From: Chitinophaga sancti
Lineage (GTDB): Bacteria > Bacteroidota > Bacteroidia > Chitinophagales > Chitinophagaceae
DNA length: 64,000 nt
Direction of reading: 5' to 3'
Assembly (NCBI RefSeq): GCF_034087045.1
Contig: NZ_CP139247.1
Location: 2,010,001-2,074,000, forward strand
The notes beneath the pieces are model-generated. The model did no database searches. It had not been told where the DNA came from and saw only the letters and a list, made by a program, of their open reading frames with translations. The translations under genes were made by a program, and so were the position numbers. Shown in pieces: positions 1,510 to 36,909 of this stretch. How positions within the stretch are numbered: the stretch's first letter is position 1; each line of letters begins with the position of its first letter.

Positions 1510-1518
1510 TTTATTAGA

Positions 1519-12274: not shown

Positions 12275-12302
12275 AACAACACCTCTAATCAGAGGTGTTG
12301 TT
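12275..12302. terminator. Hairpin between convergent phosphodiesterase and lanB genes
   Basis: AACAACACCTCT (12275-12286) pairs with AGAGGTGTTGTT (12291-12302) around AATC. It overlaps the lanB stop codon at 12289-12291. There is no long T-run on either strand, so it is a weak or bidirectional terminator candidate. Confidence 0.6.
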
Positions 12303-17012: not shown

Positions 17013-17621
17013 ATGATCCGCCTGTATTTTGTGGATAATCATCCATTGATCCTGGAAGGGCTGCGTGCATTGCTAAAGGGCGCACCCGACATCACCGTTG
17101 CCGGACAAGCCCGCAATGGTGCCACCTGTCTGTCATTCGTTTCAGCACATGCTATTGATTTAATTCTTACAGATGTATGCCTGCCTGATATTGATGGGGT
17201 GGATTTGTGTGCGGCTATAAAAGTAGCGCATCCTTCCATAAAGCTATTGGCATTGAGTTCCTGCCGTGACGTGAAATATATAACTGAAATGATAGCCCAT
17301 GGGGCGAGTGGGTATATGATGAAAGATGCGGATAGGGAAGAATTGCTGGAAGCGATTCATACCGTGTATAATGGGGGAACTTATTTCTCGCCGGTAGTGA
17401 GTCAGTTATTGGGAGAAGGGAAAAAGCATCACCTGACGCGACGGGAAAAAGAAATCCTATCATTGATAGCCGAAGGGAATACAAATCCTGAAATAGCGGA
17501 GAAGTTATTCATTAGTGCTGATACAGTGAATAGCCACAGGAAGAACTTACTGGCAAAACTGGAAGTAAAGAACACCGCCATGCTAATAAAATACGCAGTA
17601 GATAATCACCTGCTGGTATAG
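17013..17621 (+). CDS. NarL/LuxR-type response regulator
   Basis: A 202-residue two-component regulator: receiver domain (1-120) with phosphorylation site Asp54 in LILTDVCLPD and a C-terminal LuxR HTH (about 138-200, LTRREKEILSLIAEGNTNPE and ADTVNSHRKNLLAKL). In the acidic pocket the usual Asp-Asp pair reads Asp-Asn (FVDNHPL), a modest deviation that still occurs in active regulators. It starts 39 bases after lanC with no terminator between them, which makes control of the lanthipeptide locus likely. No partner histidine kinase is encoded in the window. Confidence 0.94.
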   Translation: MIRLYFVDNHPLILEGLRALLKGAPDITVAGQARNGATCLSFVSAHAIDLILTDVCLPDIDGVDLCAAIKVAHPSIKLLALSSCRDVKYITEMIAHGASGYMMKDADREELLEAIHTVYNGGTYFSPVVSQLLGEGKKHHLTRREKEILSLIAEGNTNPEIAEKLFISADTVNSHRKNLLAKLEVKNTAMLIKYAVDNHLLV

Positions 17622-18835: not shown

Positions 18836-18909
18836 CCATGTGAATTTAATGATAGCGACGCTCGTTATCGGGTTAATAACGGGCATCACAGTCACTAAAT
18901 TATGTAATA

Positions 18910-19398
18910 TTACGCAGACGGCAGTTTTTTCACTACATATAGCGGTAACCAGGTAAACAGGACCGCCAATCCACCCGCTATCACTCCCGAAATAATCGCC
19001 AGCCAGGTCCCCTCAAAACTATACCCCGCTGGCATGCTCACGTGGATGATCCACATAGCCCCCGTAACCACAATTACCGTAGCCAAAGCATTGACACCGG
19101 CCAGTTTTAGCATAAATGACAACTTTGAATGGTGAGACGGCAACATAAATGCCAGGCCCTCCTTCTCTAAAAGTGTGAAGTATTTCTTTAATATGTCGAA
19201 CGTAATCCCAAATGGCAGAAAGATCGCCATTGGAATCAGAAAACGCGCCATGGAATGCGCTCCCCTGAATAAACTGACCGCATGCCTGTCGTCGAACCCA
19301 AAGTAGGGTACAACGGCATTGATCAGCAGGTTGGTTATGAAATAAATATATAATTGTTTACGCGTGAAGGTCTTTAGCAATTTATCCCTTGACCCCAT
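18910..19398 (-). CDS. Small integral membrane protein, last gene of the PKS operon
   Basis: A 162-residue protein of unknown family with about four hydrophobic segments (near 18-32, 50-70, 96-118, 132-155) separated by short basic loops. It overlaps the upstream acyltransferase gene by 17 bases, so it is translationally coupled to the biosynthetic operon. A role in lipid transfer, in anchoring the enzymes at the membrane, or in export of the product is possible from context, but nothing in the sequence decides between these. Confidence 0.7.
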   Translation of the reverse strand: MGSRDKLLKTFTRKQLYIYFITNLLINAVVPYFGFDDRHAVSLFRGAHSMARFLIPMAIFLPFGITFDILKKYFTLLEKEGLAFMLPSHHSKLSFMLKLAGVNALATVIVVTGAMWIIHVSMPAGYSFEGTWLAIISGVIAGGLAVLFTWLPLYVVKKLPSA

Positions 19399-20668
19399 AA
19401 GTTTGTTTTATACGGCTTTTCTCCTGAAGGATACTGATCGCCTTCATTTGTATCGCCCGGGCATCACTTTCAGGTAGGAAAGCCTCGTTGGAAATAAATG
19501 TAAAATCAAGCAGCCCTTTGTAGGTAGAAGCCACTAATGTATTCGGATTGCGCCAGGGAAAACCGGCACTCGGACTATACACCGTTTCCAGCTCGAAAGT
19601 CTCAAAACTCTCCGGCAGGTGTAATTTTCCCATATTTGATAAGGTCACATCATGCGTACCTTCCGTCGTTTTCAAAAATGTCACCATCCTGGGCAGGGAA
19701 CTATGAAAGTGCTCCCCCATGTATAATAACTCGTGGATATTGATCTTGTCAATCTTTGCCATCAGGTCATTCTTAAAACTCCGGGTCTTGGACCAAAAAT
19801 CGTTCAGGGCACTGGTATCCGCGGATAATTCTACAATAGGTGCAAATGCAAACAGTTCATCCTGCGCGATCTCTGGTACAAATCTCCTGATATCCACCGG
19901 GCAAATGAGCTTATTATGCGCCTGCGATGGTCTCACCTGCCTAAAGGCTTCCAGGAAAGCCACAGAAATGGCTGCAAAGAGAGAAGTGCCTTCCTCCTTA
20001 CACCGGTATACCAGCGTATTGCTCAACTCCTGGCTCAGTTTCCAGTTTAATAAATATCCCCTGCTGGTCACCGGCTTTAATCCCCGCGTCTTCAACCACA
20101 ATACTACCCCCGCAATTTTCCCAATCACCGTGGCCCGAAGCTTGAATTTTTTATTCCCCAACAGCGATAATGGCAATAACTCAGATACATTCTCAAAAGA
20201 AGGATAAGGTGGCAGATCCAACAATGGATTATCCAACCCCATCAGCAACTCCCGCAACAATGTCAGAATAGAACTCCCGTCACAAATACAATGTGGACAA
20301 ACCAGCAATAACTCCGAAACCATATCCGATTTCAGCCAAACCACCCTTGCCAATGGCCCCTTAGTGACCTCGAACGGCCGGTACCACTCATCCACACTCA
20401 CCTGTTGCCAGTCATCGTTTGTATAACGTTCACGTATATCAATAGGAATCGGCGCGATCTGCGTATCTGTTACATAATAAGGCGCTCCTTTTTCGTCCTC
20501 CCTGATCACCACTCTTAATAACGGATGTTTCAGCTGCAACTTCAGCAGGGCCTGTTCCAATCTTTCCTGATTGATCTGCCCTTTGATTTTTACGGGAAAT
20601 ATACAATTCACAGGTGCCTCAGAGGATACATACATGACCCTCTCTCCAACAGTTAATTTTCTGTTCAT
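19382..20668 (-). CDS. Condensation-domain acyltransferase, second of a tandem pair
   Basis: A 428-residue stand-alone protein of the CoA-dependent acyltransferase/NRPS condensation superfamily. The catalytic motif HxxxDG is visible as H126-CIC-D130-G131 in VCPHCICDGSS. The N terminus (LTVGERVMY) and the C-terminal end (LDFTFISNEAFLPESDARAI) match the upstream neighbour, so the two are a duplicated pair. Relatives include PapA-type enzymes that esterify hydroxyl groups of polyketides and glycolipids. Context suggests transfer of an acyl chain onto the sugar or onto a hydroxyl of the synthase product. It overlaps the upstream gene by 4 bases. Confidence 0.87.
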   Translation of the reverse strand: MNRKLTVGERVMYVSSEAPVNCIFPVKIKGQINQERLEQALLKLQLKHPLLRVVIREDEKGAPYYVTDTQIAPIPIDIRERYTNDDWQQVSVDEWYRPFEVTKGPLARVVWLKSDMVSELLLVCPHCICDGSSILTLLRELLMGLDNPLLDLPPYPSFENVSELLPLSLLGNKKFKLRATVIGKIAGVVLWLKTRGLKPVTSRGYLLNWKLSQELSNTLVYRCKEEGTSLFAAISVAFLEAFRQVRPSQAHNKLICPVDIRRFVPEIAQDELFAFAPIVELSADTSALNDFWSKTRSFKNDLMAKIDKINIHELLYMGEHFHSSLPRMVTFLKTTEGTHDVTLSNMGKLHLPESFETFELETVYSPSAGFPWRNPNTLVASTYKGLLDFTFISNEAFLPESDARAIQMKAISILQEKSRIKQTYGVKG

Positions 20669-21936
20669 ACGGTTAAAATTGGTGTGGTGCTCGGTAGTAC
20701 TTCTTTTAATATTTGGAGGAGAGCGTCTTTAATAGCCCGGGCATCGTCCAGTGCTAAAAAGTCATCATTGGAAATAAATGTGAAATCCATCTGCCCTTTA
20801 TATGTACAGGTCAGTACAGTATTCGGATTGGCGAAAGGGCCGATCACGGCGGGACTAAATACCGTTTCGATATCAAAGGTCCGCCAATGCTCATCAATAT
20901 CCAGTTGTCCCATGTTGGAAAACATCAGGTTGTAATTGAGTTTTCCATACGTCAGGAATTTGATCATGTGCGGAATAGCGGAATGTGCATATTCCAGCGC
21001 ATGTACCATTGAAGTGCCCAGCCTTTTCTGTTTGTCAGTAGCGATAGGCTGTAGGAGCTGCACCCTTGTCCAGAAAGGCCGGGTGTGTTCATCCGGAATT
21101 TCCAGTGTGATGGAAAGACCTACGGAAAAGATGGAATCTTTGGTAATAGCCGGTACATACTTCCGGATATCTACAGGACAGGTCACCTTAGCAGCACCCT
21201 GTTCTCCCTTTACTTTTCTGAAAGCACTGGCCAGTGCTACACAAAGGGCGGTATTCACGGTGACACCCATGGCCTTGCACTGACGTACTAATGCGGATGT
21301 CATGCCCTCATCCAGTTTCCAGTGTAATAAATAGTCCTTTTCACGGTTGGTTTTTGACTTCCCTTTCGTGGAAACCAGCGCGGCCAGTAGTTGAGAACCA
21401 TATTTAATAATGCCACCTACCAACTTTGCTTTCATTAATGGCCACCCTGTACGTTGTGCTGCAGGGATAATATCTTCAATTGTTAATAAAGAACGATGCA
21501 TGCCAATATCTTTCGAAGGATTATCCAGCAGGGCAATGATTTCTTTTATCAATGCCCACCGGCCCCCACCATCACACAAACAATGATGCAGGGAAAGCAC
21601 CAGGTCAGAATAATGCAGTGTTCTGATCCAGGTCAATCTTGCCAATGGTGCGGTGGCTGTGTCAAAAGGCTGGGCCAGTTCTGCTAAAGTGACCGTGATC
21701 CAATCGGTGCTATGAACGATCTTCAAAGGAATGGGTGCAGGTTGTTCCTGCACCACATAGTGGTCATCGATAATGTTTGCCCTGAGCAAAGGATGTTTCG
21801 CCTGAATACAAGCCAGTGCATGTACCAGGTTCTCTTCTGAGATCGACCCTTTGATACGGATAGCAGATACAACATTGAAAGGTGTGTTGCCATCTCCCAA
21901 CATCAGCCTTTCGGGGAAGAGTAATTTTCTTTTCAT
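20665..21936 (-). CDS. Condensation-domain acyltransferase, first of a tandem pair
   Basis: A 423-residue homologue of the next gene in the operon. The catalytic motif is H118-CLC-D122-G123 in SLHHCLCDGGG. Both proteins share the start pattern xERLM/ERVM, the RARL/RVVW strand and the end segment DFTFISNDDFLALDDARAI. Two copies with intact catalytic residues suggest two acyl-transfer steps or two acceptor positions. It overlaps the glycosyltransferase gene upstream and the second acyltransferase downstream by 4 bases each, a sign of translational coupling. Confidence 0.87.
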   Translation of the reverse strand: MKRKLLFPERLMLGDGNTPFNVVSAIRIKGSISEENLVHALACIQAKHPLLRANIIDDHYVVQEQPAPIPLKIVHSTDWITVTLAELAQPFDTATAPLARLTWIRTLHYSDLVLSLHHCLCDGGGRWALIKEIIALLDNPSKDIGMHRSLLTIEDIIPAAQRTGWPLMKAKLVGGIIKYGSQLLAALVSTKGKSKTNREKDYLLHWKLDEGMTSALVRQCKAMGVTVNTALCVALASAFRKVKGEQGAAKVTCPVDIRKYVPAITKDSIFSVGLSITLEIPDEHTRPFWTRVQLLQPIATDKQKRLGTSMVHALEYAHSAIPHMIKFLTYGKLNYNLMFSNMGQLDIDEHWRTFDIETVFSPAVIGPFANPNTVLTCTYKGQMDFTFISNDDFLALDDARAIKDALLQILKEVLPSTTPILTV

Positions 21937-23132
21937 GCAGTTAACCTTACTTTAGTGCGTTGTGCAAAAGTTTCTAATAGTTCTACCGCTTTATCGTTTC
22001 CTCCAGCCTGTATAAATGTATCTCTGATGTGCTGTGCGCCTTTTCTGTATTTTTCATTTTGTAAAACTTCCCACATAGAATCCCGCAGATCGCTGACCCG
22101 TAGCCGCTTATAGCGCAGCTTGATACCACATCCGGCATTTTCAATGAGGGATGCAGTGTGGAAATGATCGTATGCGATGGGAGTGATGAGCATAGGTAAC
22201 CCATTCAGGAAAGCATCGTTCACCGTGTTGAAACCACCATGACAGATCACCGCATCCATATGCGGCATCAGTTGTGTCTGTGGTACATAGCCCTGTACAA
22301 TGAAGTTGTCCGGCCATGAAGAGAAGATCCCCGGATCTGTGGCTGCAACGATGGTCAATGGTTCATCGGCAAATGCTTCTATCAGTTTGCCAAAAAACTC
22401 CTTTCTGATATCTACCAATAAAGTACCTAACGACACGAATACCTTAGGTCCGATGGCTCTTGATAAACGATCCCAGTCAAACGGTGTATTATTCGGTCTG
22501 CCCTTTACGGGTCCTACAAAACGCATGTGTGGCAAAGGTGCTTTACAGCCGGAAAACTCTTCAGAAGTAAATACAATATTCATCTCTCTTGAATGAATGG
22601 CAAACTCGCCTGAATAAATTCCCATTTCATGATGCAATCCTTTGATCAGGTTCTGCTGCCATTCGAAGATCTTGGGTGACTGCATACTATCTGCTGTCAC
22701 GTCAGGAGGTACAGGTGTAGTCGTTACACAGGGAATATCTTTTTGATGAGCACAGATGGCACCTGCAAAAGTGATACAGTCACTTACAATCACATCCGGC
22801 TGAAAGTCATCAGCCACCCTGTTCACACCATTGATCATAATACGGCAAAAGGGGAGGTAAGTCTCTTCCAATGCCAGTTTCAGGGTCTCTACACCAGATA
22901 GTTTCGGACCTTCGTCCTGCTTTTGTAAAATATGATGGATAGCAGTCTGGTATTCCGCCAGCTCTGCATGTGGTACAATGAATTTTCCTCCTGCAGGAAT
23001 ATGCTCAGGAGCCAGTTCTTTCAAGCCTACCCATATCACTTCATGTCCCTTCGCAATCAGGCTGCTGCCTACACTGAGGGTGGGACTGATATGCCCGAAA
23101 AAGGGTGGTACTACAAACATGAATTTAGACAT
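21933..23132 (-). CDS. GT1-family glycosyltransferase, second of a tandem pair
   Basis: A 399-residue UDP-glycosyltransferase-like enzyme (MGT/CrtX type, GT-B fold). The N-terminal acceptor domain begins FMFVVPPFFGHISPTLSVG with the conserved His; the C-terminal nucleotide-sugar domain contains VFVSLGTLL and the donor motif CHGGFNTVNDAFLNGLP. It resembles the preceding gene product over its whole length. Relatives glycosylate lipophilic aglycones such as macrolides and carotenoids (zeaxanthin glucosyltransferase). In this operon the likely acceptor is the hydroxylated acyl or polyene chain, or the first sugar. It starts 22 bases after the first glycosyltransferase gene. Confidence 0.92.
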   Translation of the reverse strand: MSKFMFVVPPFFGHISPTLSVGSSLIAKGHEVIWVGLKELAPEHIPAGGKFIVPHAELAEYQTAIHHILQKQDEGPKLSGVETLKLALEETYLPFCRIMINGVNRVADDFQPDVIVSDCITFAGAICAHQKDIPCVTTTPVPPDVTADSMQSPKIFEWQQNLIKGLHHEMGIYSGEFAIHSREMNIVFTSEEFSGCKAPLPHMRFVGPVKGRPNNTPFDWDRLSRAIGPKVFVSLGTLLVDIRKEFFGKLIEAFADEPLTIVAATDPGIFSSWPDNFIVQGYVPQTQLMPHMDAVICHGGFNTVNDAFLNGLPMLITPIAYDHFHTASLIENAGCGIKLRYKRLRVSDLRDSMWEVLQNEKYRKGAQHIRDTFIQAGGNDKAVELLETFAQRTKVRLTA

Positions 23133-23154
23133 AGGATAGTGGTTTTAAGATAGA

Positions 23155-24375
23155 TTAATAAACTTTGTTGCGGTAAAATGCCTGGTTCATCGTCATACCA
23201 TAGGGGGGAATGACTGGCGCCAGATCTTCCAGCAGATCGGCTGCTGTAGCGGCGCCACCAGAACGTTCAAATGAATCCTGGATACGTTGTGCGGCTTGTT
23301 TATACGCCGGGTTTTTCAGGATCTCGAATACAGCCTCACGAAGATGCGGCGCTTTGAAACGTTTAAAGTTCAGCCGTACACCACTCTCTGCCTGTGTGAC
23401 CTGACCTGCTACATGCGATTGATCATAAGCAATTGGAATTACGACCAGTGGCAATCCATGTGAAAGTGTTTCGCACACGGTGTTATGACCACCATGACAA
23501 ACCACGGCATCCAGGTGTGGCAACAGTTCCAGCTGAGGTACGCGATCCTGCACAATAAAATTGGAAGGCCAGCTGTCAAAGAGACTTTCATCCGATACGA
23601 CTATTACTGTCACTGCTTCGTTGTTAAAAGCATCAATGACCTTTCCAAAGAATTCTTTTTTATAAGCGTGATCGAAAGTGGTACCTATCGAGACGAGTAT
23701 TCTTGGATGGGTACCCATCTGCGACAGTTGTTCCCAGTTAAAAGGAGGTACAGTATGCCGGTTATTGAATACAGGGCCTATGAATTTGTAATGCTCCGGT
23801 GTGTCCATATAACCGAAGAAATCCTTTGAAGTATATACCAATGTGAGTTTTTCAGAAAGCACTACGGCGTTATTTCCTGGTACGCCGAGTTCCTGTTGTA
23901 GTCCTACGATCTGTTTTACTTCCCAGTCATGTACACCGGGCAGGTCTTCAACCATCTTGATCGCTGCTGGTGCAGTCACGGAAGTAGCGTAAGGCATATT
24001 CCTGTTGTAAGCCGCAATGGCACCGGCAAATAGCTGGTGGTCATTGATCACTACATCTGGTTTGAAGCTATCGAGAATGGTATTGATGCCATCGTACATA
24101 AACCTGTTTAGGGGTATCAGTACCTCTTCGTAAAGGAACTTGATACTTTCAATGCCGGATACATTCTTTTTATGGATCTGTTCCAGGTAGTCTTCGCTAT
24201 CGTCGTTATACTCGGCGAGCAGCAGTTGACCACCGGCTGGCAATCTATTGCCCAGTGCGGGGTCCAGGGTGATCCAGCCTACTTCGTGCCCTCTTTTCAA
24301 TAATTCAGCACCGAGGCTCAATGTTGGGTTCACATGCCCATGTAAGGGAGGAACTATAAACGCAAACCTTGCCAT
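23155..24375 (-). CDS. GT1-family glycosyltransferase, first of a tandem pair
   Basis: A 406-residue GT-B enzyme, MARFAFIVPPLHGHVNPTLS at the N terminus (catalytic His in LHGH) and CHGGHNTVCETLSHGLP as the nucleotide-sugar motif, followed by PIAYDQSHVAGQV. It shares frame and motifs with the next gene. Family knowledge points to transfer of a sugar from a UDP- or dTDP-sugar to a lipophilic hydroxyl acceptor. It overlaps the alpha/beta hydrolase gene by 22 bases. The sugar donor specificity cannot be read from the sequence. Confidence 0.92.
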   Translation of the reverse strand: MARFAFIVPPLHGHVNPTLSLGAELLKRGHEVGWITLDPALGNRLPAGGQLLLAEYNDDSEDYLEQIHKKNVSGIESIKFLYEEVLIPLNRFMYDGINTILDSFKPDVVINDHQLFAGAIAAYNRNMPYATSVTAPAAIKMVEDLPGVHDWEVKQIVGLQQELGVPGNNAVVLSEKLTLVYTSKDFFGYMDTPEHYKFIGPVFNNRHTVPPFNWEQLSQMGTHPRILVSIGTTFDHAYKKEFFGKVIDAFNNEAVTVIVVSDESLFDSWPSNFIVQDRVPQLELLPHLDAVVCHGGHNTVCETLSHGLPLVVIPIAYDQSHVAGQVTQAESGVRLNFKRFKAPHLREAVFEILKNPAYKQAAQRIQDSFERSGGAATAADLLEDLAPVIPPYGMTMNQAFYRNKVY

Positions 24376-25169
24376 ATTCTATTATTGATTTGTCTGAATT
24401 TGCTCTGCCATCCTTCGAAGAAGTCTTTTAATCGTAATGCCGTTTCTTCCGGCTGTTGTAGCGGCAGATTATGATCCCCGTTCAGTAAAGCGAGTTTAGA
24501 ACGGGTGAGTCTGTCATATAAAGTTTGTCCGGAGGGTACGCAGTCAGAGTCTTTGCCATAAAGCAATAAAGTATCCTGTTTGATATACCCGATCTCCTTG
24601 CCGGAGAAGAAGCCACGTTCTTTGCGCAGGTCAGCTTTGATGGATGTTTCATTGAACAGGTATTCGTACATGCGATGGTTTTTTTCCAGCTGTCGCTTGC
24701 CCATCCTGAACTTTGTGGTGTCAGTAAAGTTGTTGATGTAGTCGATCAGAAACTCTTTGCTGTACATATCGATAATGCCCAGTCTTTCATTTTCGCCCGG
24801 ATCGGGCGCTTCGATGACAGCGAGTTTCCTGACCCTACCGGGGAACCGGCTCGCCATGCGTAGCGCGACCAGTCCGCCGAAGCTATAACCTACCAGGTGT
24901 ACGGCTTTGAGTTCTAAGGTTTCCATCAGGGCTAACAGATCGTCGGTGAGGGCGTTCAGGTCGTAACCATCTTTCTCCTTACCGCTCATGCCATGACTCT
25001 TCAGGTCATACATGACTACATGAAATTGTTTGGCCAGAATTGGGGCAATGTTGAAATAGTAAACGGACAGATTGCTGAACATTCCATGGATCAGCAAAAT
25101 GGTTTCCTTTGCACCTTTGTTCATTTCCTGTACATGAACGGAGGTGTGATTGATTTTGATTACTGGCAT
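24354..25169 (-). CDS. Alpha/beta hydrolase, likely chain-releasing thioesterase
   Basis: A 271-residue alpha/beta-hydrolase-fold protein. HGMFSNLSVYYF gives the oxyanion loop, Ser96 lies in the nucleophile elbow VGYSFGG, the acidic residue in LLYGKDSDCVP and the catalytic His in LNGDHNLP. It sits directly between the free acyl carrier protein gene and the glycosyltransferases, overlapping both (10 and 22 bases). By position it is the best candidate to release the chain from a carrier protein, but no residues distinguish a thioesterase from an esterase. Confidence 0.88.
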   Translation of the reverse strand: MPVIKINHTSVHVQEMNKGAKETILLIHGMFSNLSVYYFNIAPILAKQFHVVMYDLKSHGMSGKEKDGYDLNALTDDLLALMETLELKAVHLVGYSFGGLVALRMASRFPGRVRKLAVIEAPDPGENERLGIIDMYSKEFLIDYINNFTDTTKFRMGKRQLEKNHRMYEYLFNETSIKADLRKERGFFSGKEIGYIKQDTLLLYGKDSDCVPSGQTLYDRLTRSKLALLNGDHNLPLQQPEETALRLKDFFEGWQSKFRQINNRIWQGLRL

Positions 25170-25456
25170 TGTTCAATGTATTTTATAATGTCACCCAGGC
25201 TGAGATTGATCAGCTGGTCGAGGTCCATGTTGGAAAGCCATCCTGTAAAGTCTACATGTTCACCAAAGTGACCCTTCACCTTCTCTGAAAAGGACACGAT
25301 CTCGATACTGTCCATTTCCAGATCCCGTGTAAAAGAGCTTTCTTTGGTGATGTCCATATCTTCTACGAACTCTTCTCCGATTACCTCAGTTATGAATTGT
25401 TTCAGCAAGGCGAAGATCTCTTCGCTGTTCAGTTTGTGTGCAGCTATAGCGTCCAT
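25160..25456 (-). CDS. Free-standing acyl carrier protein
   Basis: A 98-residue carrier protein. The phosphopantetheine attachment site is Ser50 in DLEMDSIEIVSF, within a four-helix ACP-like pattern (helix 1 about 10-28, helix 2 from 50). It overlaps the second synthase gene by 13 bases and the hydrolase gene by 10. Because the first synthase already carries three ACPs, this extra one may hold a starter unit or the acyl group donated by the condensation-domain acyltransferases. The C-terminal phosphopantetheinyl transferase of the upstream gene could activate it. Confidence 0.9.
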   Translation of the reverse strand: MDAIAAHKLNSEEIFALLKQFITEVIGEEFVEDMDITKESSFTRDLEMDSIEIVSFSEKVKGHFGEHVDFTGWLSNMDLDQLINLSLGDIIKYIEQCQ

Positions 25457-28400
25457 CCGATTATAAAATTGTTGTGTTTAATTGTCTTAATGTTGATATC
25501 GTTAATAGTCAGCTCATCACCATTGATAGCGGCAATGGCATATCCTTTTGGATTGCCCTGGAGCCCTTTACCCAGGTATTTGCCATAAGCTTCTTTGGCA
25601 ACCCAGGCGCGAATGATCCATTCATCGCGGTTTTCAGGGGGCAGCAGCTCCAATTCTGTAACACTGAACACCAGTTCACAAAAGCCCTCACTCTGTGGTT
25701 TTATCTCTTCTATGTCAATACCTACCGGTTGTTGATAACGGGCAATCGCCACAGCTTCCATACCTTTGTGTGCAATACTCAGTTGAATATCTTCCACACC
25801 TGCTACATAAGGTGCACCGGCAGCATTGTTTTTGATTTCAAATTCTATCGGGAAGCAGTGGTGTTGTAACACCGCCCGCACAGCGTCTTTGGCGGCCACG
25901 CGACTGATGATCCGTTCTTTACGCTTCATTGGCATCAGCCCTTTTACAAAGGCTTTCTCTGCCTGGTTCAGGTAGCGCTTCTGAATAAAATCCCATGATA
26001 CCACACGCTGGTAAGCATTGTTAAAAGTGAATACACCCGGTGCAATCTCTTTCGCCAGTTTATTTTGTAATGGCGCCATGGAGATCTGCCAGAGGGCTTC
26101 ATCAATTTCAAGCCTTCTGTTTTGCCAGCCGGTAACGATGGCCCATATCTGTCCTGCTTTTTTGATGACAAAATCAGCAGTGGCAAATTCGTCATTCAGT
26201 TCAGTGAGCTGACAGGTACATTCAAAGCTGCCGGATTGATCCCGCATATCACCATAGAAAGCGATTTCATGGATCTTTACGGGAAATGCGATCCTGTCTT
26301 TCGTTAAGGTCAGCTGTAACCACAGTCCGAACAGCTGGCCGGCGTTGTCTAATAAGGAACCTTTGCCCGTGCTGCTTTCGATGATGCCGGTGATGCCTTT
26401 TTCGCCCATGTGCACAATCTTCCGGATACCCTGGTAACCGGGGCCATGGAACATGTGCCGCTCGTAGATCTGCTCAGGTGTTTTGTACAATTCACTGTCT
26501 AAGGAGGCGCCAATGGAAAAATCCCTTGCAGGTGGTACCGGATATTGCTTAGTCAGTTGTACACTGGCATTGGCATAATTAGGAAGGTCCAGGTGCACAG
26601 TGTCATTTCCTTCCCACTTACCGGTAATGGTTTCTTTGAAAGGAGAGGACACGTTCATCCATTGGAACACCTGTATGTTGTAAATGCGTTTTACAGCCCT
26701 ATTCTGACCGTTTGCACGGGCCACGTCACCAAATAGCTCAAAGATCATCGTCATGGGTATAACGGGGTCCATATCTTCTTTAATGGGCCATCCGGGTTTT
26801 TGTTTTACCAATGCGTGGTCGATGAGGTAAGGCGTATTTTCCAGAGAAATATTGAGTGTATGAGAAATGGGTTGTACAGTGATCGGGTCATTGAATAATG
26901 CAATGATTTCATCCTGAATAGCCGAGATCTCATCTACATTTTGAAGAAATGCCTGTAAAACAGGTTTTCGCACGGTGGCAAATGCAGGCTTCATAGCAGG
27001 AGCAGGAAGAGATAATCCCTTCAAACTTTCCAGTTCTTTGATAAACGGTGAACCTAATTGCAAAGGCATGCCCGGTTTGGCTTTTGGAGAAATTCCTAAA
27101 AATGCCGGATTCACAGGTTTCCCTTCCACAAACAATGCAGCCATTACTCGTTGTAACTGATCCAACCCACTGCGTGTAGGTACATTCGCAGCGATTGCAC
27201 TATATGATTTACCTTTCAATGTATCATCTACAAATCCAATCAAACCACCTGCACCTGCCTGGATAAACACACGTACATTTTCTTCCTCGTATAATTTCTG
27301 TGTCAGTTCACGGAAGCGTACCGGTTTAATTAAATGATCCACACTCAAATCCCTGATGGCCTCATACGTATCCGGATACAGATCCAGCGTAGTCGCAGAC
27401 CAGAACGGAATCTCAGGTTTTAACCACTGTATCTTGCTGATACCCGCCAGCAATACATCTGTTTTCTTCGCTACAAATGGAGAGTGGAAGCCAGACTGGA
27501 AAGGCAGTACCTGGTAGAAGATCTGCTTTGCTTTCAGTATCTCAATGAAGTCTGCAACCGCAGCATCTGTACCACAAAGAATCACTTGCTGCGGACAGTT
27601 GTCCATGGACAGATAAATATCTTGCTTCCCTTCCAGTAAAGGAAGCAGCTGGTCATATCCAATACCGGTCACCAGGAATTTCGCATTTTCTGTTTCTAAT
27701 GCCTGTGGGTTCAGGTCCTGTAATATTTCAAGAATAGAAGCCTCCGTAGCCATACCCGCAGAGCGGCCAGCCAGCCATTCGCCCATACTATGACCTGCAT
27801 TCAGGTCAGGACGAATCCCCATTTGTTTGAGGGCTGTATCGATAATACGGCTCCTTTCCAGCAGGGTAATAGCAGAATCGTATACGCTGTCTTTATTGCT
27901 CTCTGCACCGGGTAAATTAAAGTGAGCCGCAACGCTATCTACTTCTCCGCCACCCAATCCATCCAGGCCTGCAAAAAGGAAGGCCACCTTTCCGCCTTTG
28001 GAAATCAACGGCTCATTGGTAAACCAGATGTCCTGTTTGTTTCTCCACGGGGTATTCCTGCCTACAATTTTTACGGCCTTTTTGATTCGTTCCGGCGAAG
28101 GATCAAACAATGCAATGCGGTAATCACCCTGTCCGGGATCGGTTTCTTTATTTTCCAATGCACGGATCAGTGCATCTGCACTATTCCTTGCCAGTAATAA
28201 TACATCTGCTTTCAGCGAAGGCGTGATGCCATTGAAGACGCCTTTAGGTAAGCTATTAAAGCCTTCTACCACCAGATGTGCATTGATACCACCAAACCCA
28301 AATGCATTCACCCCTGCTCTTAATGGTAAGCCTGTCGCCTGCCAGTCGGTGGCTTCCTGTACGGGTGCAAATCGGGTATCCTGCATAGCTGCTACCGGTT

Positions 28401-29619: not shown

Positions 29620-29640
29620 ATTTGCGGACGTTTTTTAAGG

Positions 29641-32600
29641 TTAAGCCATGATCAGTACCTGGCTCTCATTTCCATATTTCAGCTCGTTTACAAATAGCTC
29701 CATGCCTTCCTGTAAAGGGATGAGAGCAATGCCTCTGCGTTCGTATTCCCTTTCCAGCGCAGGAGACACCATCCCGGTGCCTTTCCATGGACCCCAGTTG
29801 ATAGCTGTCACTTTCCCTTTAATGGTGTTGCGCAGCTCCCATGCATAGCGGTCCATCACACTGTTGGCAGCAGCATAGTCAGTTTGGCCACGGTTGCCAT
29901 ATACTGAGGCCACGCTGGAGAAGAAGATCACAAACTGTACATCCGGACGCAGTTGTTCTGCCAGTATTCTCAGTGGTGTAACTTTGGTCGTGAACACGCG
30001 TTCGAATGATTCAGAAGTCTTTTGCTGGAAGAGTTTATCTTCTAATAATCCGGCTCCATGTACTACGCCATCAATCCGGCCATAGTTTTTGTATACCTGA
30101 TCGATCAGTGCACTGATCTCCTGTTCATTGCGCAGGTCGAGTGAGCGATAAATAACAGTCGCACCATTTTGCTCAAGCGAATGGATGGTGGATAATATCT
30201 GGTTTGCTTTGTGTATATCGGAAGCTTTCTTTTCTATGTCCGCCGGTTTGGTGAGTTGTCCTTCGGCTATCAGTTGCTTTTTGATCGCATCTTTGGTTGT
30301 GAGAGATGCATATTGAGAAGCTACCACATTGCGAGGGTCAGCGGAGCGACCTACGAGTATATAATTACAAGGATAATCCTTTGCAAAGCGGATCATCAGT
30401 TCTGCTGTAATGCCCTGTGCACCGCCTAATACCAGTACTACGCTGTTCTTATTCAATTGCAGTTGTGAAGTATCACCTACGGGTAATTGTGAAGGTATCA
30501 GACTAAAAGTATGTCTGCTGCCATTGTGATAAATCACTTCTGCTGGTTCATCAGGATGAAGAATTTCATCGATGATCATACCTGGAATGCGATCAGCCGG
30601 GAACTGGCCTGTCAGTGTAATGCTACGGCACCTGGTGGTTTCCCATTCCTTGTCCAGGCTTTTCAGAAAACCGGGATAGCCTTGTACACTACGCAGGTCT
30701 TTGGCATCGCCATTCAGTACACCGGAAATGGCATATACCCATTTCGCTTTTTCAGGGTTCAGCTTTTTGATGGTGTCAAATGCTGTGAGGATGTTAGGCC
30801 GGCCGGGTGCTGTAAGCAGATCTGGAATGATCAGCCCCTGGTATTCATCTAAAGGTTCTTCACCTTTTATGATCGTAACACTGGCGCCTTTTTCAACCAG
30901 CAAACTTTGCAAAGCCGCAGGCAATGCGCTGCCATCGTCCATGATAGCAAACTTCGCATCTTTAATAGCAACCGCCTGCTGGGCAAAAACGGAAGGCGTC
31001 AAAGAGAAACACAACCTTGAAAGACTTGCTGCTGTTGCGGCAGCTATCGCATTGGCGGTATTGTATACAGGAATTGCGTTACCCACATTCTGCACAGGAC
31101 TCGCTGGCGCAGTACCACCTACATTTTCAGCAATCCAACGCAGCAAACCATTCAGGGTTTTAATCCCTGCAAGAGCTTCTGTTTTATCTTCTCCATTCTG
31201 GGAGAAGCTGCCAATCTTTATTTTCAGCTCACCCAGTATTTCCATACGTTTGATAGAATCAATACTGAGATCCGCTTCCAGGTCCAGGTCCATACCCAGC
31301 ATATCAGTAGGGTAGCCGGTTTTTTCACTGACCGTGAGCAGGAGTATATTTTTAATTTCGCTTTCGGACCAGGTTACCGATGTTTGCGCCGCAGCAGATG
31401 TGGATGGAGCTGCTGCCGGAGCCGCCTGTGGCTGATCCATATTTCCTGAAATCCATACTAACAGACCATTTAAGGTTTTGATACCCGCTAATTGTTCTAC
31501 CACAGCTTCGTCGCTCTGACCGCTGGTTTTGAAGCCCCCCAACCGGGTGCGGAGTTCACCTATGATCTCCATGCGCTTAATAGAATCTATACTCAGATCC
31601 GCTTCCATGTCGAGATCTAAGCCCAGCATCTCTTGTGGATAACCGGTCTTTTCACTCACAATTTGCAAAATAGTGTCTTTGATATCGACCACAGGTTGTT
31701 GTGCAATGGCATGTTGCAGCGATACGCCACCAGCATCTGGTAAGCTCTGTGCATCTACGTTTTCAGCGATCCATTGCAGCAGACCATTCAGTGTTTTGAT
31801 ACCTGCCAGTTGTTCTACAACTGCTTCGTCTGATTTGCCACTTGATTTGAAACCACCCATTTGGGTACGCAGCTCCCCGATGATCTCCATACGCTTGATA
31901 GAGTCAATGCTCAGGTCTGCTTCCATGTCCATTTCAAGACCTAGCATTTCGTGTGGATAACCTGTTTTTTCACTGACTACTTCGATGAGGATGCGTTTAG
32001 TATCTCTCTTTGTAGGAGCAGAAGCCGGAGCTGGTGCTGGCGTCGCAACCTGGACCGCCACATGCGTAGCCGGCGCCACAGCCGCCGCAATCGACATTGC
32101 CGCAGGCGTATGACCCAAATAACCCAATATCACATCTCTCTGTGCCTGCACCAACAATTTCACACTATTCAAATATTCCTGCACCATATATTCTGCATTG
32201 CCCGCAGGAGGAGCTACCACTACAGGAGCCGCGCCAATATTCAGTTTCAATGGCTGCAATAACGGCATTGCACCATGCGCTGGCAACTTACCCACAGAAG
32301 GCACTGCCATATGCCCATTTACAAGCCATACTGTAGCACTCTTCTTATATTGAGCAGGGTTATCCAGTTGTAATACCTGCACATCACGACCATCAAATAG
32401 TTTCTCTAAATTGATCGCTCTACCTGTACTTATATATTTTGCCAGTGTATTCAACAAATGGGTGATCGCGTGCGGTGCTTTATCTTCTGTATGCAACACC
32501 AGCGTTTCTTTACCTAAAGTTGACTTTGCCAGATTACTCAACACTTTACCCGGTCCTGCTTCAATAAACACCCTTGCACCTGCAGCATACATGTGTTCCA

Positions 32601-35600
32601 CCTCTTCTGCAAACAATACTGGTTTAACGATATGCTCCGCCAATCTTGCCCTGATCTCCGCTGGTTGTGTTGGATATAACTGTGCCGTAGTATTTGACCA
32701 TACAGGAATGGCAATAGGCGCAAAATCTACATCCTTGATCGCGGTCTCATATAGCGCCTTTGCACCCGCTATCACCGGACTATGGAATGCACAGGCCACT
32801 TCCATCTGTTTGTAAGAGATCTTTGCCTCTTTCAATTTCTCCATCAGCGCTTCCATATCAGCTTTCTTACCAGCCAATGCCCATTGCGCAGGGGAATTAT
32901 GATTCACCGGATACACACCCGTACCCTCACCCGTAAATGCTTTTAATACATCTTCCCCACAGCTTACAGCCACCATCATCCCCTTATCATCAATCACGCC
33001 ACCCAGTATTGCTTTCGCACGCAACTCACTGAGCGGTACCAACTGCTCATCAGCAAATGCCCCTGCAAAACACAACGCCGGCAACTCGCCATAACTATGC
33101 CCTGCCATCATATCAGGCTCAATACCCAATGATTGCAGGAACTGCGCCATGGCCAGGTCCACAATGCCCAACACAGGTTGCGCTACCCTTGTGTCTTTGA
33201 TCTGTTCTTTCTGTTGCTGGATCGCCTCATTATTAAACACCGCCGGTGGAAACAACACTTTCTCATAAGCAGGATGTTTCTTCAGCAACTGTCTCATCTC
33301 GGGGAAAGCCACGAACAGCTCTCTCGCCATATTGATCCGCTGACTACCCTGCCCAGGGAATAAAAAGGCTACCTTCCCTTCTACAGGCGCTGTCACATAA
33401 ATATCTTTAGAAGTAGCACCTGCCATGGCCAGATCTAATTTCATCATCAGATCTTCTCTGCCGGTAGCTACAATAGATAAGGATACCGGCTCCTGGCTAT
33501 ACACTGCCAGACTATAAGCCAGATCCTTCAGTGATATACTATCATTGTTTTGGAGTATGCTGCTCACCGCTTTCAACAACGGCTGACTATTTCCTCTGAA
33601 TACGAATAACTCTGCCGGCCATGTCTTAATCGCTGTATGCGCGTCCTGTACGCTGGCATCATTTTCGATCACTGCATGGAAGTTCGTACCTCCAAACCCA
33701 AATGCGCTGACACCCGCCGTACGCTTATCATCCAGCCACAACCCTGCTTCCGCATTAAACAGGAAAGGACTGCTTGCCGGATTATAAAAACTATTCGGCG
33801 TCTTCATATGCAAGGTAGGCGGCTTCACACCATGATATACTGACAATGCAGCCTTGATCAATCCTGCCAGACCTGCAGCACACTTAGTATGCCCGATCTG
33901 TGTCTTTACAGAACCCAGGTAGGTCTGCCCGATCACCGCACCATTCTGAATCAGCATGTCAGAGATGGCACTGATCTCAGTCTTATCACCTACTACAGTA
34001 CCGGTACCATGCGCTTCCACCAAACCTACTGTAGCCGGAGATATTCCACTCATCTCATAAGCACGTTCCAATGCTTTCACCTGCCCTGCCTTACGTGGTG
34101 CAGTTAGCCCTAAACTCTTCCCATCACTACTACCACCCACACCTTTGATCACAGCATATATTTTATCTCCATCTCTCTTTGCATCTGACAATCTTTTCAG
34201 CACAATCATCGCTACCCCTTCACCCAGTGCAATCCCATCCGCCTCACTATCAAAAGTTGCGCATCGTCCTTTCTTTGACAATGCATGCGTACTACTAAAC
34301 ATCAGGTAGTCATTAATCCCATTGTGCAGGTCGGCAGCACCAGCCAGCACCATTTCGGACTTACCCAATACCAGCTCCTGACAGGCCAGGTCAATCGCCG
34401 CCAGGGACGATGCGCAAGCGGCATCTACCGTATAGTTACGTCCACCCAGATCCAACCTGTTCGTAATACGACCAGAGATCACATTGGCCAGCACGCCCGG
34501 AAAACTATCTTCCGTCATTCTTGGCAACACTGCTTTCAACTCATCCGGCATCTCACCCAGATACTGTCGATACGTAGATCTGAACCCATAACTATTTGCC
34601 AGATCAGTACCACCTTCTGCACCTATAATTACAGATACATCTTCTCCATTAAATTCCTTTCCGCCATACCCCGCATTATCCAATGCCTGCTTCGCTACCA
34701 GCAATGCCAGCAACTGTGTAGGGTCTATCGCTGCCAATGACTGTGGTGGAATCCCAAACGCCATCGGATCGAAATCAATACGCGGAATAAATCCTCCCCA
34801 CTTGGAAGGAGACATCTCGCCATCATTCGAATTATTATCAAAATACAATTCCTTGTTCCATCTCTCATCCGGCACCTCAGTTACACAGTCTACACCATTC
34901 AATATATTCGCCCAGAACTCATCGATATTTTTCGCACCCGGATAGATACAAGCCATACCGATGATGGCTACATCCAGTGCTTTCTCCGGCTGTGTAAGCG
35001 GAGCAGGCAAAATAGCTTTATCAATAATGGTCTGATTCATTGCTGCCACATCTTCATGTAGTGCATGCATCGTCACCGTTTCATTGCGCATGGCGGCTAC
35101 CTGCCCAATCATATACATGCCTTCACTTAGTTGTTGCTTTGGTGCTATTTTCACCAAACCATCATCTGTTCTATCCACACCTTTCGCAGCAATCCGCAAA
35201 CGGCCTACATTCAGTGATTCGAGTTGCGCCCAGATCTCTTTTTTATCCACATTTGCAGCTACCAGCTGCTCCTTTTCCTTATTAAAATAATCGGCAAAAG
35301 GAGAGTGCAGACAACGGGTTTCATGGCCCGGGGCAGTTTCTAATAAAACGGTATGATTATGTGCAATGGCCTGATCCTGGAATTGCTGCAGGATTGCACC
35401 CGTCTCTACTGCTTCTTTCGTATAGATATAAGCAGTACCCATCAACACACCAACTTTCGCACCTTTGGTCGCCAATGGTGCGACCATCACACCAATAAAA
35501 GCTGCTGACAATGCATCGTGAATACCACCTGCAAAAAACAAACTGAACTGGCCCGCATTTTCTTCCTGCAATAGTCTGTCAATTTGTTTCTCCCACAGCA

Positions 35601-36909
35601 CAAAGCTGGACAGGGGCCCTACGTGTCCTCCGCATTCGCGGCCTTCAAATACAAATTTCCTGGCCCCTTCTTTTATAAACATATCCAGCAATGAAGCTGA
35701 GGGTACATGCAGGAAAGACTGGATACCCTGCTGCTCCAGCGCTTTGGCCTGAGAGGGGCGGCCACCGGCTATGAGCACGAATGGCGGTTTTTCTTCCTGT
35801 ATGTAAGCAGTCTGCTCATCTCTCAGCTCCTGCGGTGCAAACCCGAGTATACCCACACCCCAGGTTTTGTCACCGGCAAGTTGTTTGGTTTCGCGGATCA
35901 GGTTTCTGGCTGATTCGCCTTTCAATAAAGACAGGGCTACGAATGGCAGAGCACCTGCATTGGCTACAGCCGCAGCAAAAGCGGGCACGTCGCTCACACG
36001 TGTCATCGGCCCTTGTGCAATGGGATAGGTAATGTTCAATTCCTTCGCCAGTGCATTGTTCGGACTGATGACAGGCTGTGTCTGTGCCTGCCTGATATGC
36101 CCACGAATAGCATGATGCATACCGGTGATGAGTCTGCCTAATTTCTTATATCGCTTTACAAGGTCGGTAGAAATGGCAATGTCCTGACCCAGTGGCAGGA
36201 AACCTTTATCCAGTTCCAAAGTTTGTAACAATGGCTCTAACTGGGCCATGGTAGCGTTTTCTGGCAGCTCCGGAGAGTTGGGGCGTACCAGTACGCGGAA
36301 ATGATCGATGAGGCGGGTCTCATTGCCATTGAGTTTTTCGCATACATTTTTTAATGCTTTAGGGGCTGTACATTCAGGAAAGAGTGCCAGTTGGCTGTCC
36401 AGTACCACCCCGGTAGCGCCAGTGGCTATAAGGGCCGCTGTAGTGTGAATACCGATGCCTCCCTGTACATATATGTGGGCATCAGGAATTGCTTTGACTA
36501 CCTGCTGAAATAAAATGTAAGATGATTCATCACCTGTTTTACCACCACTTTCATTCCCTTTGAGAATGATACCGTCTGCCTTCTCTTTCTTTGCCAGCTT
36601 CGCTTCGGCAAGACTATGCACCTGGTAAAACAGTTGCACTCTCTTTGGCAGTTTTAATTTCATTCCATAGGGTGCAATAACCATTGATACCTGCTCAGGG
36701 AGGGAAATATCTGCAACACTAGTATGCACAATACATACACCGAAGGGTTGTGACAGTTGTAGTGCCAGTGCAGACAATGCTGTTTCCGCAACTTGTCTGT
36801 TACGTCCTAAATGAAGTACAGGGAAGGCTTTCGCATTAGCCAAAGCAATGGCAAGGTGGACGTCAGGGCTTTCGAACGGGGTGATCCCGATAATTGTAGA
36901 CATATTCAT
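29641..36909 (-). CDS. Giant synthase: PfaD-like reductase-KS-AT-ACP-ACP-ACP-KR
   Basis: A 2422-residue iterative PKS/PUFA-type synthase. Residues 1-230 look like a degenerate TIM-barrel half (GGIGIHTTAALIATGATGVV). Residues about 285-600 form a nitronate-monooxygenase/PfaD-like flavin reductase (YPIAQGPMTRVSDVPAF; ECGGHVGPLSS with the active His). KS about 643-1075, Cys832 in VDAACASSLAAID plus EAHGTGTVVGDKTE; AT about 1180-1500, Ser1272 in GHSYGELP; three tandem ACPs with pantetheine serines at 1670, 1776 and 1885, all in a DLSIDSIKRMEI context; KR about 1950-2422 with LGGAQGITAEL, SSVASVYGNRGQ and Tyr2345. It is the first gene of the operon. Two in-frame ATGs (36909, 36903) are possible starts. 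Function: building and reducing the acyl chain. Confidence 0.94.
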   Translation of the reverse strand: MNMSTIIGITPFESPDVHLAIALANAKAFPVLHLGRNRQVAETALSALALQLSQPFGVCIVHTSVADISLPEQVSMVIAPYGMKLKLPKRVQLFYQVHSLAEAKLAKKEKADGIILKGNESGGKTGDESSYILFQQVVKAIPDAHIYVQGGIGIHTTAALIATGATGVVLDSQLALFPECTAPKALKNVCEKLNGNETRLIDHFRVLVRPNSPELPENATMAQLEPLLQTLELDKGFLPLGQDIAISTDLVKRYKKLGRLITGMHHAIRGHIRQAQTQPVISPNNALAKELNITYPIAQGPMTRVSDVPAFAAAVANAGALPFVALSLLKGESARNLIRETKQLAGDKTWGVGILGFAPQELRDEQTAYIQEEKPPFVLIAGGRPSQAKALEQQGIQSFLHVPSASLLDMFIKEGARKFVFEGRECGGHVGPLSSFVLWEKQIDRLLQEENAGQFSLFFAGGIHDALSAAFIGVMVAPLATKGAKVGVLMGTAYIYTKEAVETGAILQQFQDQAIAHNHTVLLETAPGHETRCLHSPFADYFNKEKEQLVAANVDKKEIWAQLESLNVGRLRIAAKGVDRTDDGLVKIAPKQQLSEGMYMIGQVAAMRNETVTMHALHEDVAAMNQTIIDKAILPAPLTQPEKALDVAIIGMACIYPGAKNIDEFWANILNGVDCVTEVPDERWNKELYFDNNSNDGEMSPSKWGGFIPRIDFDPMAFGIPPQSLAAIDPTQLLALLVAKQALDNAGYGGKEFNGEDVSVIIGAEGGTDLANSYGFRSTYRQYLGEMPDELKAVLPRMTEDSFPGVLANVISGRITNRLDLGGRNYTVDAACASSLAAIDLACQELVLGKSEMVLAGAADLHNGINDYLMFSSTHALSKKGRCATFDSEADGIALGEGVAMIVLKRLSDAKRDGDKIYAVIKGVGGSSDGKSLGLTAPRKAGQVKALERAYEMSGISPATVGLVEAHGTGTVVGDKTEISAISDMLIQNGAVIGQTYLGSVKTQIGHTKCAAGLAGLIKAALSVYHGVKPPTLHMKTPNSFYNPASSPFLFNAEAGLWLDDKRTAGVSAFGFGGTNFHAVIENDASVQDAHTAIKTWPAELFVFRGNSQPLLKAVSSILQNNDSISLKDLAYSLAVYSQEPVSLSIVATGREDLMMKLDLAMAGATSKDIYVTAPVEGKVAFLFPGQGSQRINMARELFVAFPEMRQLLKKHPAYEKVLFPPAVFNNEAIQQQKEQIKDTRVAQPVLGIVDLAMAQFLQSLGIEPDMMAGHSYGELPALCFAGAFADEQLVPLSELRAKAILGGVIDDKGMMVAVSCGEDVLKAFTGEGTGVYPVNHNSPAQWALAGKKADMEALMEKLKEAKISYKQMEVACAFHSPVIAGAKALYETAIKDVDFAPIAIPVWSNTTAQLYPTQPAEIRARLAEHIVKPVLFAEEVEHMYAAGARVFIEAGPGKVLSNLAKSTLGKETLVLHTEDKAPHAITHLLNTLAKYISTGRAINLEKLFDGRDVQVLQLDNPAQYKKSATVWLVNGHMAVPSVGKLPAHGAMPLLQPLKLNIGAAPVVVAPPAGNAEYMVQEYLNSVKLLVQAQRDVILGYLGHTPAAMSIAAAVAPATHVAVQVATPAPAPASAPTKRDTKRILIEVVSEKTGYPHEMLGLEMDMEADLSIDSIKRMEIIGELRTQMGGFKSSGKSDEAVVEQLAGIKTLNGLLQWIAENVDAQSLPDAGGVSLQHAIAQQPVVDIKDTILQIVSEKTGYPQEMLGLDLDMEADLSIDSIKRMEIIGELRTRLGGFKTSGQSDEAVVEQLAGIKTLNGLLVWISGNMDQPQAAPAAAPSTSAAAQTSVTWSESEIKNILLLTVSEKTGYPTDMLGMDLDLEADLSIDSIKRMEILGELKIKIGSFSQNGEDKTEALAGIKTLNGLLRWIAENVGGTAPASPVQNVGNAIPVYNTANAIAAATAASLSRLCFSLTPSVFAQQAVAIKDAKFAIMDDGSALPAALQSLLVEKGASVTIIKGEEPLDEYQGLIIPDLLTAPGRPNILTAFDTIKKLNPEKAKWVYAISGVLNGDAKDLRSVQGYPGFLKSLDKEWETTRCRSITLTGQFPADRIPGMIIDEILHPDEPAEVIYHNGSRHTFSLIPSQLPVGDTSQLQLNKNSVVLVLGGAQGITAELMIRFAKDYPCNYILVGRSADPRNVVASQYASLTTKDAIKKQLIAEGQLTKPADIEKKASDIHKANQILSTIHSLEQNGATVIYRSLDLRNEQEISALIDQVYKNYGRIDGVVHGAGLLEDKLFQQKTSESFERVFTTKVTPLRILAEQLRPDVQFVIFFSSVASVYGNRGQTDYAAANSVMDRYAWELRNTIKGKVTAINWGPWKGTGMVSPALEREYERRGIALIPLQEGMELFVNELKYGNESQVLIMA

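Follow-up and report, generated by a model that had tools for sequence, protein, structure and literature searches.

A Conserved Nine-Gene Operon of Bacteroidota with a Candidate Role in the Synthesis of a Diglycosylated, Acylated Long-Chain Hydroxy Fatty Acid

Introduction

Which lipid would be made by an operon that joins two multidomain synthases to two glycosyltransferases and two acyltransferases? The question is raised by a 64,000-nucleotide stretch of the Chitinophaga sancti genome (RefSeq assembly GCF_034087045.1, contig NZ_CP139247.1, forward-strand positions 2,010,001 to 2,074,000), here called the window, whose positions are used throughout. The host genome comprises 8.32 Mb in one contig. 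Positions 18910-36909 hold nine open reading frames (ORFs) on the minus strand, which a first-pass annotation took for an operon making a glycosylated, esterified lipid of polyunsaturated fatty acid (PUFA) or polyene type. The reading that we put forward here, with moderate confidence, is that they form a self-contained and horizontally transferable operon, a cassette, whose product would be a long-chain hydroxy fatty acid bearing two sugars and acyl groups.

Results

A nine-gene operon, conserved in order

In operon order the nine ORFs encode synthase 1, synthase 2, a free acyl carrier protein (ACP), an alpha/beta hydrolase, two glycosyltransferases (GTs) of family GT1, two condensation-fold acyltransferases and a small membrane protein, with sizes of 2422, 1391, 98, 271, 406, 399, 423, 428 and 162 aa. 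The successive junctions are a gap of 21 bases, overlaps of 13, 10 and 22, a gap of 22, and overlaps of 4, 4 and 17. All eight thus stay within 22 bases of overlap or gap, where seven had been counted before; the nine minus-strand genes and the gene content given by the first-pass annotation agree with the Pfam and NCBIfam calls.

The same set is found in other Bacteroidota. A one-genome-per-species collection was scanned with synthase 2, 118 relatives were confirmed and the best 80 were kept; the ORFs at these loci were called by a script and assigned by phmmer. In 69 of the 80 the order is complete: synthase 1 and synthase 2 are followed by the ACP, the hydrolase, two GTs that may be separate or fused, two or three condensation ORFs and finally the membrane protein. 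The third condensation ORF of two of these loci (L034, L037) stems from a split gene. The synteny that had been proposed as a check is therefore there. With the whole set recurring in unchanged order at 69 of the 80 named loci, a chance arrangement is excluded and the nine-gene operon is confirmed as real. The set is found in Chitinophaga, Pedobacter, Mucilaginibacter, Dyadobacter, Taibaiella, Filimonas, Chryseobacterium, Flavobacterium and Sphingobacterium, and by synthase 2 the closest named strains are of Chitinophaga type, with [Flexibacter] sp. ATCC 35208 at 98%.

The remaining 11 loci depart from the full set. Three are incomplete by a contig end (L059, L084, L087), the synthase frames are broken in C. 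pinensis YS-16 (L074), and in L051 the ACP is the sole member not called. The membrane protein was not called in four Dyadobacter loci, two of which also have no called ACP and one no called GT 2, nor in one Mucilaginibacter locus (L028); a Filimonas locus (L072) has just one condensation ORF and lacks the membrane protein. The tight spacing is also shared: 47 of 67 loci have no intergenic gap longer than 29 bases, while the others have gaps of 58 to 1105, when every ORF starts at its first possible start and two loci with fused GTs and three condensation ORFs are omitted. The gene families that flank the set are commonly shared within genera, but rarely between them.

The two synthases

Synthase 1 (29641..36909) consists of two NMO/FabK-like domains, namely a FabK-like enoyl reductase (ER)-like domain 1 and an ER domain 2, followed by a ketosynthase (KS), a malonyl-type acyltransferase (AT), three ACP domains and a ketoreductase (KR). 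Active-site residues of the synthases were counted in 79 sequences, i.e., the window and 78 loci, with L074 and L084 left out. Domain 1 (residues 1-280, 36070..36909) has the motif KGNE in 79/79, but in the alignment none of the 79 has a histidine at the position that we take, from its presumed role, to be that of the catalytic histidine. Because of this absence domain 1 is probably a non-catalytic partner. Domain 2 (residues 285-631, 35017..36057) carries the FabK-type motif GRECGGH in 79/79. In a profile search with residues 1-640, residues 283-557 match solved structures of FabK enoyl-ACP reductases (E 8e-25) and residues 63-198 also match an enoyl-ACP reductase II, and the predicted structure of the N-terminal region has two consecutive alpha/beta regions (mean predicted local distance difference test, pLDDT, 81.1). 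The catalytic residues of the KS (33670..34974; C832, H967, H1007), of the AT (32509..33366; S1272 and the malonyl-type R1297) and of the KR (29782..30441; Y2345 and N2349) are present in 79/79. The three ACP domains (31105..31977) carry the motif DLSIDSIKR; the number of ACP motifs per synthase 1 is two in 75 of the 79, three in 3 and one in 1. The union of KS, AT, KR and tandem ACPs in one protein is a trait of PUFA synthases.

Synthase 2 (25444..29619) has the order KS, AT, polyketide-type (PS-DH-like) dehydratase (DH) and 4'-phosphopantetheinyl transferase (PPTase). Its KS (28255..29616) keeps C205 and H340 in 78/79 and H377 in 79/79. The possibility that this KS is a chain-length factor (CLF) was considered and rejected, as its cysteine, kept in 78/79, is that of a condensing KS. 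The AT (27235..27852) has S611 in all 79 sequences and a leucine at the place of the malonyl arginine in 78. According to passages of one study, PfaB lacks the same arginine and handles long-chain acyl groups; malonyl is not bound by PfaB, and of two PfaB enzymes only one transferred it to ACP, less well than a malonyl AT did (PMC12895367). Because the malonyl arginine is absent here as in PfaB, the AT of synthase 2 likely performs long-chain acyl transfer of the PfaB kind. The dehydratase (26050..26868), called in a separate scan of the middle part of synthase 2, has H935 and D1091 in 79/79. The motifs of the built-in PPTase (25465..25947) are nearly invariant in the 79 sequences. In one Chitinophaga genome (G428:C13:120195-124417) synthase 2 is read from two frames, with the PPTase end on the second.

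Carrier protein, hydrolase and decorating enzymes

The free ACP (25160..25456) has its carrier serine in 76/76, with a PP-binding score of 18.7 bits, slightly below the Pfam cut-off of 20.8. The alpha/beta hydrolase (24354..25169), with S96 and H233 in 78/78, would serve chain release or ester formation.

GT 1 (23155..24375), of MGT type, keeps its GH..PT motif and a donor motif ending in D-Q in 77/77, while GT 2 (21933..23132) has D-H in place of D-Q, also in 77/77. Both GTs match the family profile and have the GH motif, in which we presume the position of the catalytic histidine, and their scores of 196 and 181 bits are below the curated MGT cut-off of 260. In plant enzymes D-Q goes with glucose and D-H with galactose, but to apply this rule to GT 1 and GT 2 would be a guess. 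The two GTs are fused in Chryseobacterium, Flavobacterium and Sphingobacterium loci, which suggests that they act successively. Within the genome no protein is closer to GT 1 than GT 2 (335 bits versus 91 for the next). A tree made on the question of whether GT 2 arose by duplication of GT 1 has a very long outgroup branch, and pairwise identities are used instead: 38% between the GTs of the window, and 37% for GT 1 and 31% for GT 2 with a Streptomyces relative described below.

Among ORFs of 400-520 aa, acyltransferase 1 (20665..21936) has the motif HHxxxDG in 75/77 and acyltransferase 2 (19382..20668) has P/A-HxxxDG in 75/75. The best solved-structure match of both is the mycobacterial phthiocerol dimycocerosyl transferase 8s6l, which we take to be PapA5; the alignments span residues 12-307 of 423 and 3-360 of 428, respectively, and both proteins appear to be PapA5-like acyltransferases. 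From their conserved residues the main enzymes of the operon look active, and the members of the GT pair, like those of the condensation pair, differ in a fixed way.

Four residues of the small membrane protein (18910..19398), N23, N27, R52 and D68, do not vary among 15 aligned sequences, and its model shows four long helices (mean pLDDT 80.9). The protein has no Pfam match, and no PDB sequence match at E values up to 1.

Is the chain polyunsaturated?

A PUFA or polyene product, as first proposed, is not borne out by the domains. PUFA synthase (pfa) clusters resemble the cassette in having an iterative KS-AT-ACPn-KR protein and an NMO/FabK-type ER, but they carry a FabA-like dehydratase/isomerase and a KS-CLF didomain; in the cassette the dehydratase is PS-DH-like instead, and both KS domains are of Cys-His-His type. 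Scans with Pfam and NCBIfam, with the separate scan of the synthase 2 middle region, gave no FabA-like dehydratase/isomerase among the nine proteins; no CLF is found, as both KS domains keep Cys-His-His in the alignment, and no PfaD N-terminal domain (PfaD_N) was found in the cassette. As a positive control, an unannotated PUFA cluster on plasmid pPP1 of Persicobacter psychrovividus (L108, L120) was recognised by its own domains. One of its proteins is PfaA-like and has six ACP stretches, another combines two KS domains with two FabA stretches and a weak AT, and a third is a PfaD that carries PfaD_N; in the alignment the second KS of the cluster, without the cysteine and the first histidine, is CLF-like. 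A FabA-like isomerising dehydratase is the usual route to cis double bonds. Since such an enzyme is missing from the cassette while the ER, KR and DH motifs are kept, a chain with saturated stretches and some hydroxyls is the likelier product. Analogy with the related Ars system, described below, likewise points to a mostly saturated chain with hydroxyls.

The PfaA model of NCBIfam finds the cassette all the same. The best PfaA-model match was a cassette KS in each of four genomes searched; in one Chitinophaga genome both cassette KS domains are the two best matches, and a Pedobacter genome has a second, weaker PfaA-like locus (359 bits). Such a label would express family kinship with PUFA synthases and is no proof of the product.

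Relatives with other partners

A tblastn search of synthase 1 against plasmids gave four records with at least 80% coverage, two from Streptomyces and one each from Methylosinus sp. C49 and Beijerinckia indica ATCC 9039. Shulse and Allen assign the last to Type P, phenolic lipids (PMC3098273). Between the Beijerinckia ArsA-like synthase and synthase 1 identity is about 40% in the aligned part, which covers most of synthase 1, and the dehydratase-phosphopantetheinyl transferase (DH-PPT) protein aligns with synthase 2 residues 869-1390 at 25%. At the same locus are two proteins annotated with the C-terminal domain of ketoacyl-ACP synthase III (KAS III), by position and paper type III polyketide synthases (PKSs), and a protein annotated as a glycosyltransferase also adjoins. 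The Ars system (Type P; Azotobacter, Beijerinckia) is thus like the cassette in its tandem ER-KS-AT-ACP-KR synthase with a separate DH-PPT protein, and the product of ArsA is given as C23-C25 fatty acids in a passage of PMC4824345. Ars passes its chain to a type III PKS. No such enzyme is among the nine genes of the cassette, where the synthase is accompanied by a second KS-AT unit, by a free ACP and a hydrolase, and by GT1 enzymes and acyltransferases.

On the plasmids of Streptomyces sp. NBC_01243 and NBC_00984 synthases 1 and 2 come first, then ACP, hydrolase and GT1 as in the cassette, and after these a methyltransferase; pairwise identity to the cassette is 37% for the GT and 28% for the ACP. 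These operons differ from the cassette in having one GT, the methyltransferase after it and no annotated condensation protein nearby. Proteins of the synthase 2 type are frequent in the genus: when 8000 candidates were scored there were 5330 matches, and nearly all those named among the best 120 are from Streptomyces. In a KS tree (43 rows, quick IQ-TREE, support by the Shimodaira-Hasegawa-like approximate likelihood ratio test, SH-aLRT), which has several long branches and unsure deeper forks, KS 1 joins the KS 1 of Streptomyces (97) and then the KS of ArsA and one KS from Rhodobacteraceae (88). KS 2 joins the KS 2 of Streptomyces (96), and the Persicobacter PUFA KS domains lie outside.

Under the name Type N, Shulse and Allen 2011 (PMC3098273) describe a secondary lipid synthase cluster that occurs in Chitinophaga pinensis DSM 2588 and also in Chryseobacterium gleum; they give its product as uncharacterised and suggest a role in resting bodies. 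The main text of that paper has no occurrence of "glycosyl". The cassette is present in C. pinensis YS-16 (L074) and in 20 Chryseobacterium loci (C. gleum is outside the 80), and to judge from host and synthase rank it is very probably the Type N cluster. A region of Chryseobacterium herbae has the antiSMASH label hglE-KS/T1PKS/terpene, according to a passage of PMC10459008. It very probably contains the cassette, since one of our loci (L060) comes from that genome, where it occupies 512,560-536,777 on the second contig. No characterised product or cluster with this gene set was found in the searched literature, and the first-pass annotation likewise knew of no such product; a report elsewhere is possible. 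The part consulted of a 600-genome Bacteroidetes survey (PMC9248904) has no occurrence of "glycolipid". Sphingobacterium detergens, which carries the set (L061), is said in a passage of PMC8009627 to make a glycolipid; no structure for it was found in the searched literature, so no link is claimed.

Patchy distribution and transfer as a unit

The distribution is patchy. Of 77 genomes belonging to the genus, 22 have a match at E 1e-100; so do 2 of 396 drawn from the class and 4 of 392 from the phylum, with the own genome included. To see how the set moves, consider Sphingobacterium, which belongs to the class Sphingobacteriia. All nine of its proteins (5 or 6 rows) are nearer to those of Chryseobacterium and Flavobacterium than to those of Pedobacter or Mucilaginibacter; synthase 2, for instance, is 81.5 and 80.9% identical to the Chryseobacterium and Flavobacterium proteins, versus 66.5 and 67.4% to those of Pedobacter and Mucilaginibacter. 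The Sphingobacterium copies also share the GT fusion and the KS branch with the Flavobacteriia copies. Because all nine proteins side with the Flavobacteriia, the set, as judged by these comparisons, is transferred as one unit.

Discussion

A proposed pathway for the nine proteins

In the pathway that we infer for the cassette, the carrier domains would be activated by the PPTase built into synthase 2, and malonyl units would be loaded by the AT of synthase 1, where the malonyl arginine is present. The KS, KR and FabK-type ER of synthase 1, together with the PS-DH-like domain of synthase 2, would make up an iterative and fully equipped reduction cycle, and hydroxyls would be left in rounds where the DH or the ER is skipped. 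The condensing KS of synthase 2 and its AT, with no malonyl arginine, may carry out the last elongations and hand over the long chain, perhaps to the free ACP. The alpha/beta hydrolase would then release the chain, GT 1 would place a sugar on a chain hydroxyl (or on the carboxyl) and GT 2 would add a second sugar. The two PapA5-like enzymes would acylate sugar or chain hydroxyls, perhaps with acyl groups from the free ACP, while the small membrane protein would assist at the membrane. The enzyme set hence fits that part of the first-pass proposal in which a chain is released, given two sugars and acylated, but not the PUFA or polyene chain. Gene content and order, their conservation, the intact active sites, the domain kinships and the transfer as a unit are seen in the sequences themselves. 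Each chemical step and the order of the steps, chain length and saturation, sugars, acyl groups and their donors, and the location of the lipid are conditional on the assignments above.

Several observations weigh against this pathway. The AT of synthase 2 keeps the motif GHS, whereas PfaB has GYS, with a tyrosine beside the serine where the AT has a histidine. The PS-DH score is near the Pfam cut-off (24.5 versus 23.7 bits in the window), and among six synthase 2 mid-regions scanned it is above the cut-off in three and below it in three. The kinship with Ars is drawn from one Beijerinckia and one Methylosinus locus, with an SH-aLRT of 88% for the KS branch, and synthase 2 has an extra KS-AT that is absent from Ars. 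The full-set loci were found through synthase 2, among the best 80 of 118 relatives. Finally, synthase 1 passes the NCBIfam cut-off for PfaA (TIGR02813) with 1115 versus 1010.1 bits, and the GTs could act on another acceptor.

Alternative products

The last point leads to an alternative that we regard as possible but rather unlikely, in which the synthase chain is the acyl donor. The GTs would then build a disaccharide on another acceptor, such as a carotenoid, glycerol or a polyprenol, and the PapA5-like enzymes would acylate it from ACP; PapA5 transfers mycocerosate in this manner. A dimycocerosyl transferase as the best solved-structure match of both condensation proteins, a free ACP within the operon and a synthase 2 AT that would be of long-chain type all agree with such a scheme. 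Against it, no acceptor-making gene family was seen beside the set across genera, and the two Streptomyces relatives have a GT next to synthases, ACP and hydrolase. As the five-gene core in these two Streptomyces records keeps its GT with no annotated acyltransferase of this kind, a tie between sugar transfer and the synthase chain is the strongest inference that we draw about the chemistry. A polyunsaturated chain, for which the PfaA score of synthase 1 and the rank of the cassette KS domains speak, is improbable, considering that FabA-like domain, CLF and PfaD_N are all present in the Persicobacter control but not found here, that an ER with an intact motif is present, and that KS 1 groups with the PKS1-type KS of Streptomyces and the ArsA-type KS and not with PfaA or PfaC of Persicobacter (deep forks unsure).

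More improbable still, and very much so, is a long-chain diol or triol glycoside made after reductive release, as for the heterocyst glycolipids. The hgl islands resemble the cassette in combining an iterative long-chain synthase with a glycosyltransferase, the synthase classes are related, a glycoside is likely, and the antiSMASH call in C. herbae points the same way. However, hgl islands need a thioester reductase for alcohol release. No thioester reductase or other reductive release enzyme was found for the nine genes by Pfam, or among the best 25 NCBIfam matches of the synthases, and two GT1 enzymes, two PapA5-like acyltransferases and a hydrolase are there in its place.

Among known molecules, the product class nearest in chemistry would be that of the fattiviracins and cycloviracins. 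We know of no gene cluster for the fattiviracins, cycloviracins or glucolypsins. Extracts from PMC4365757 describe all three as glucosylated long-chain hydroxy fatty acids, C19 to C33, with ester links, and the fattiviracins and cycloviracins as glucosylated trihydroxy fatty acids. Molecules of this kind could be made by such enzymes, and the kinship in chemistry is offered as a bold lead. In its fullest form, which is speculative and rather unlikely to hold, the five-gene core (synthase pair, ACP, hydrolase and GT1) would make fattiviracin-like glucosylated polyhydroxy C22-C30 fatty acids in Streptomyces, and the Bacteroidota would have added a GT and two PapA5-like acyltransferases. The result would be a new class of diacyl diglycosyl lipids, at the cell surface or secreted, in at least two phyla and spreading between genera as a cassette.

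Many soil- and plant-associated Bacteroidota hold an intact and strictly ordered lipid operon that annotation would label as PUFA synthase or hglE-KS. If the proposed pathway is right, its products would form a class of bacterial glycolipids not yet described, which may serve as surfactants or as lipids of the envelope, and the built-in PPTase should ease transfer of the cassette to a laboratory host. The cassette is also a test case for how PUFA-like synthases are diverted to other lipids, as related synthases are paired with a type III PKS in Ars, with one GT in Streptomyces and with two GTs and two acyltransferases here.

Neighbouring genes and other observations

A minus-strand ORF at 17720-18895 (391 aa, GTG start) begins 14 bases downstream of the operon. 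It has no Pfam match, and an internal ATG precedes a stretch that resembles a signal peptide. Within the fetched flanks its family lies beside the operon at every Chitinophaga-type locus (13 of 13) and at none of the 67 others. As a tenth core gene it was rejected on account of this confinement; the most it could be is a tenth gene peculiar to the genus.

Near the operon are a LanB-type dehydratase (12289-15294, minus strand), a LanC-like cyclase (15816-16973, plus strand) and a LuxR-type response regulator (17013-17621, plus strand), which together look like a class I lanthipeptide-like locus. The regulator and neighbours of LanC size recur in 12 of 13 Chitinophaga-type loci. A terpene synthase gene adjoins the cassette in another locus (L054:21678-22676); a terpene link of the cassette was rejected, as this family is seen in six Chryseobacterium loci only. 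The same genome as that of the window has a large modular PKS region with 16 KS matches (G000:C1:6382500-6444803). The window itself starts within a ribosomal RNA operon, with the end of the 23S rRNA gene and the 5S rRNA gene at positions 1-1510 (plus strand).

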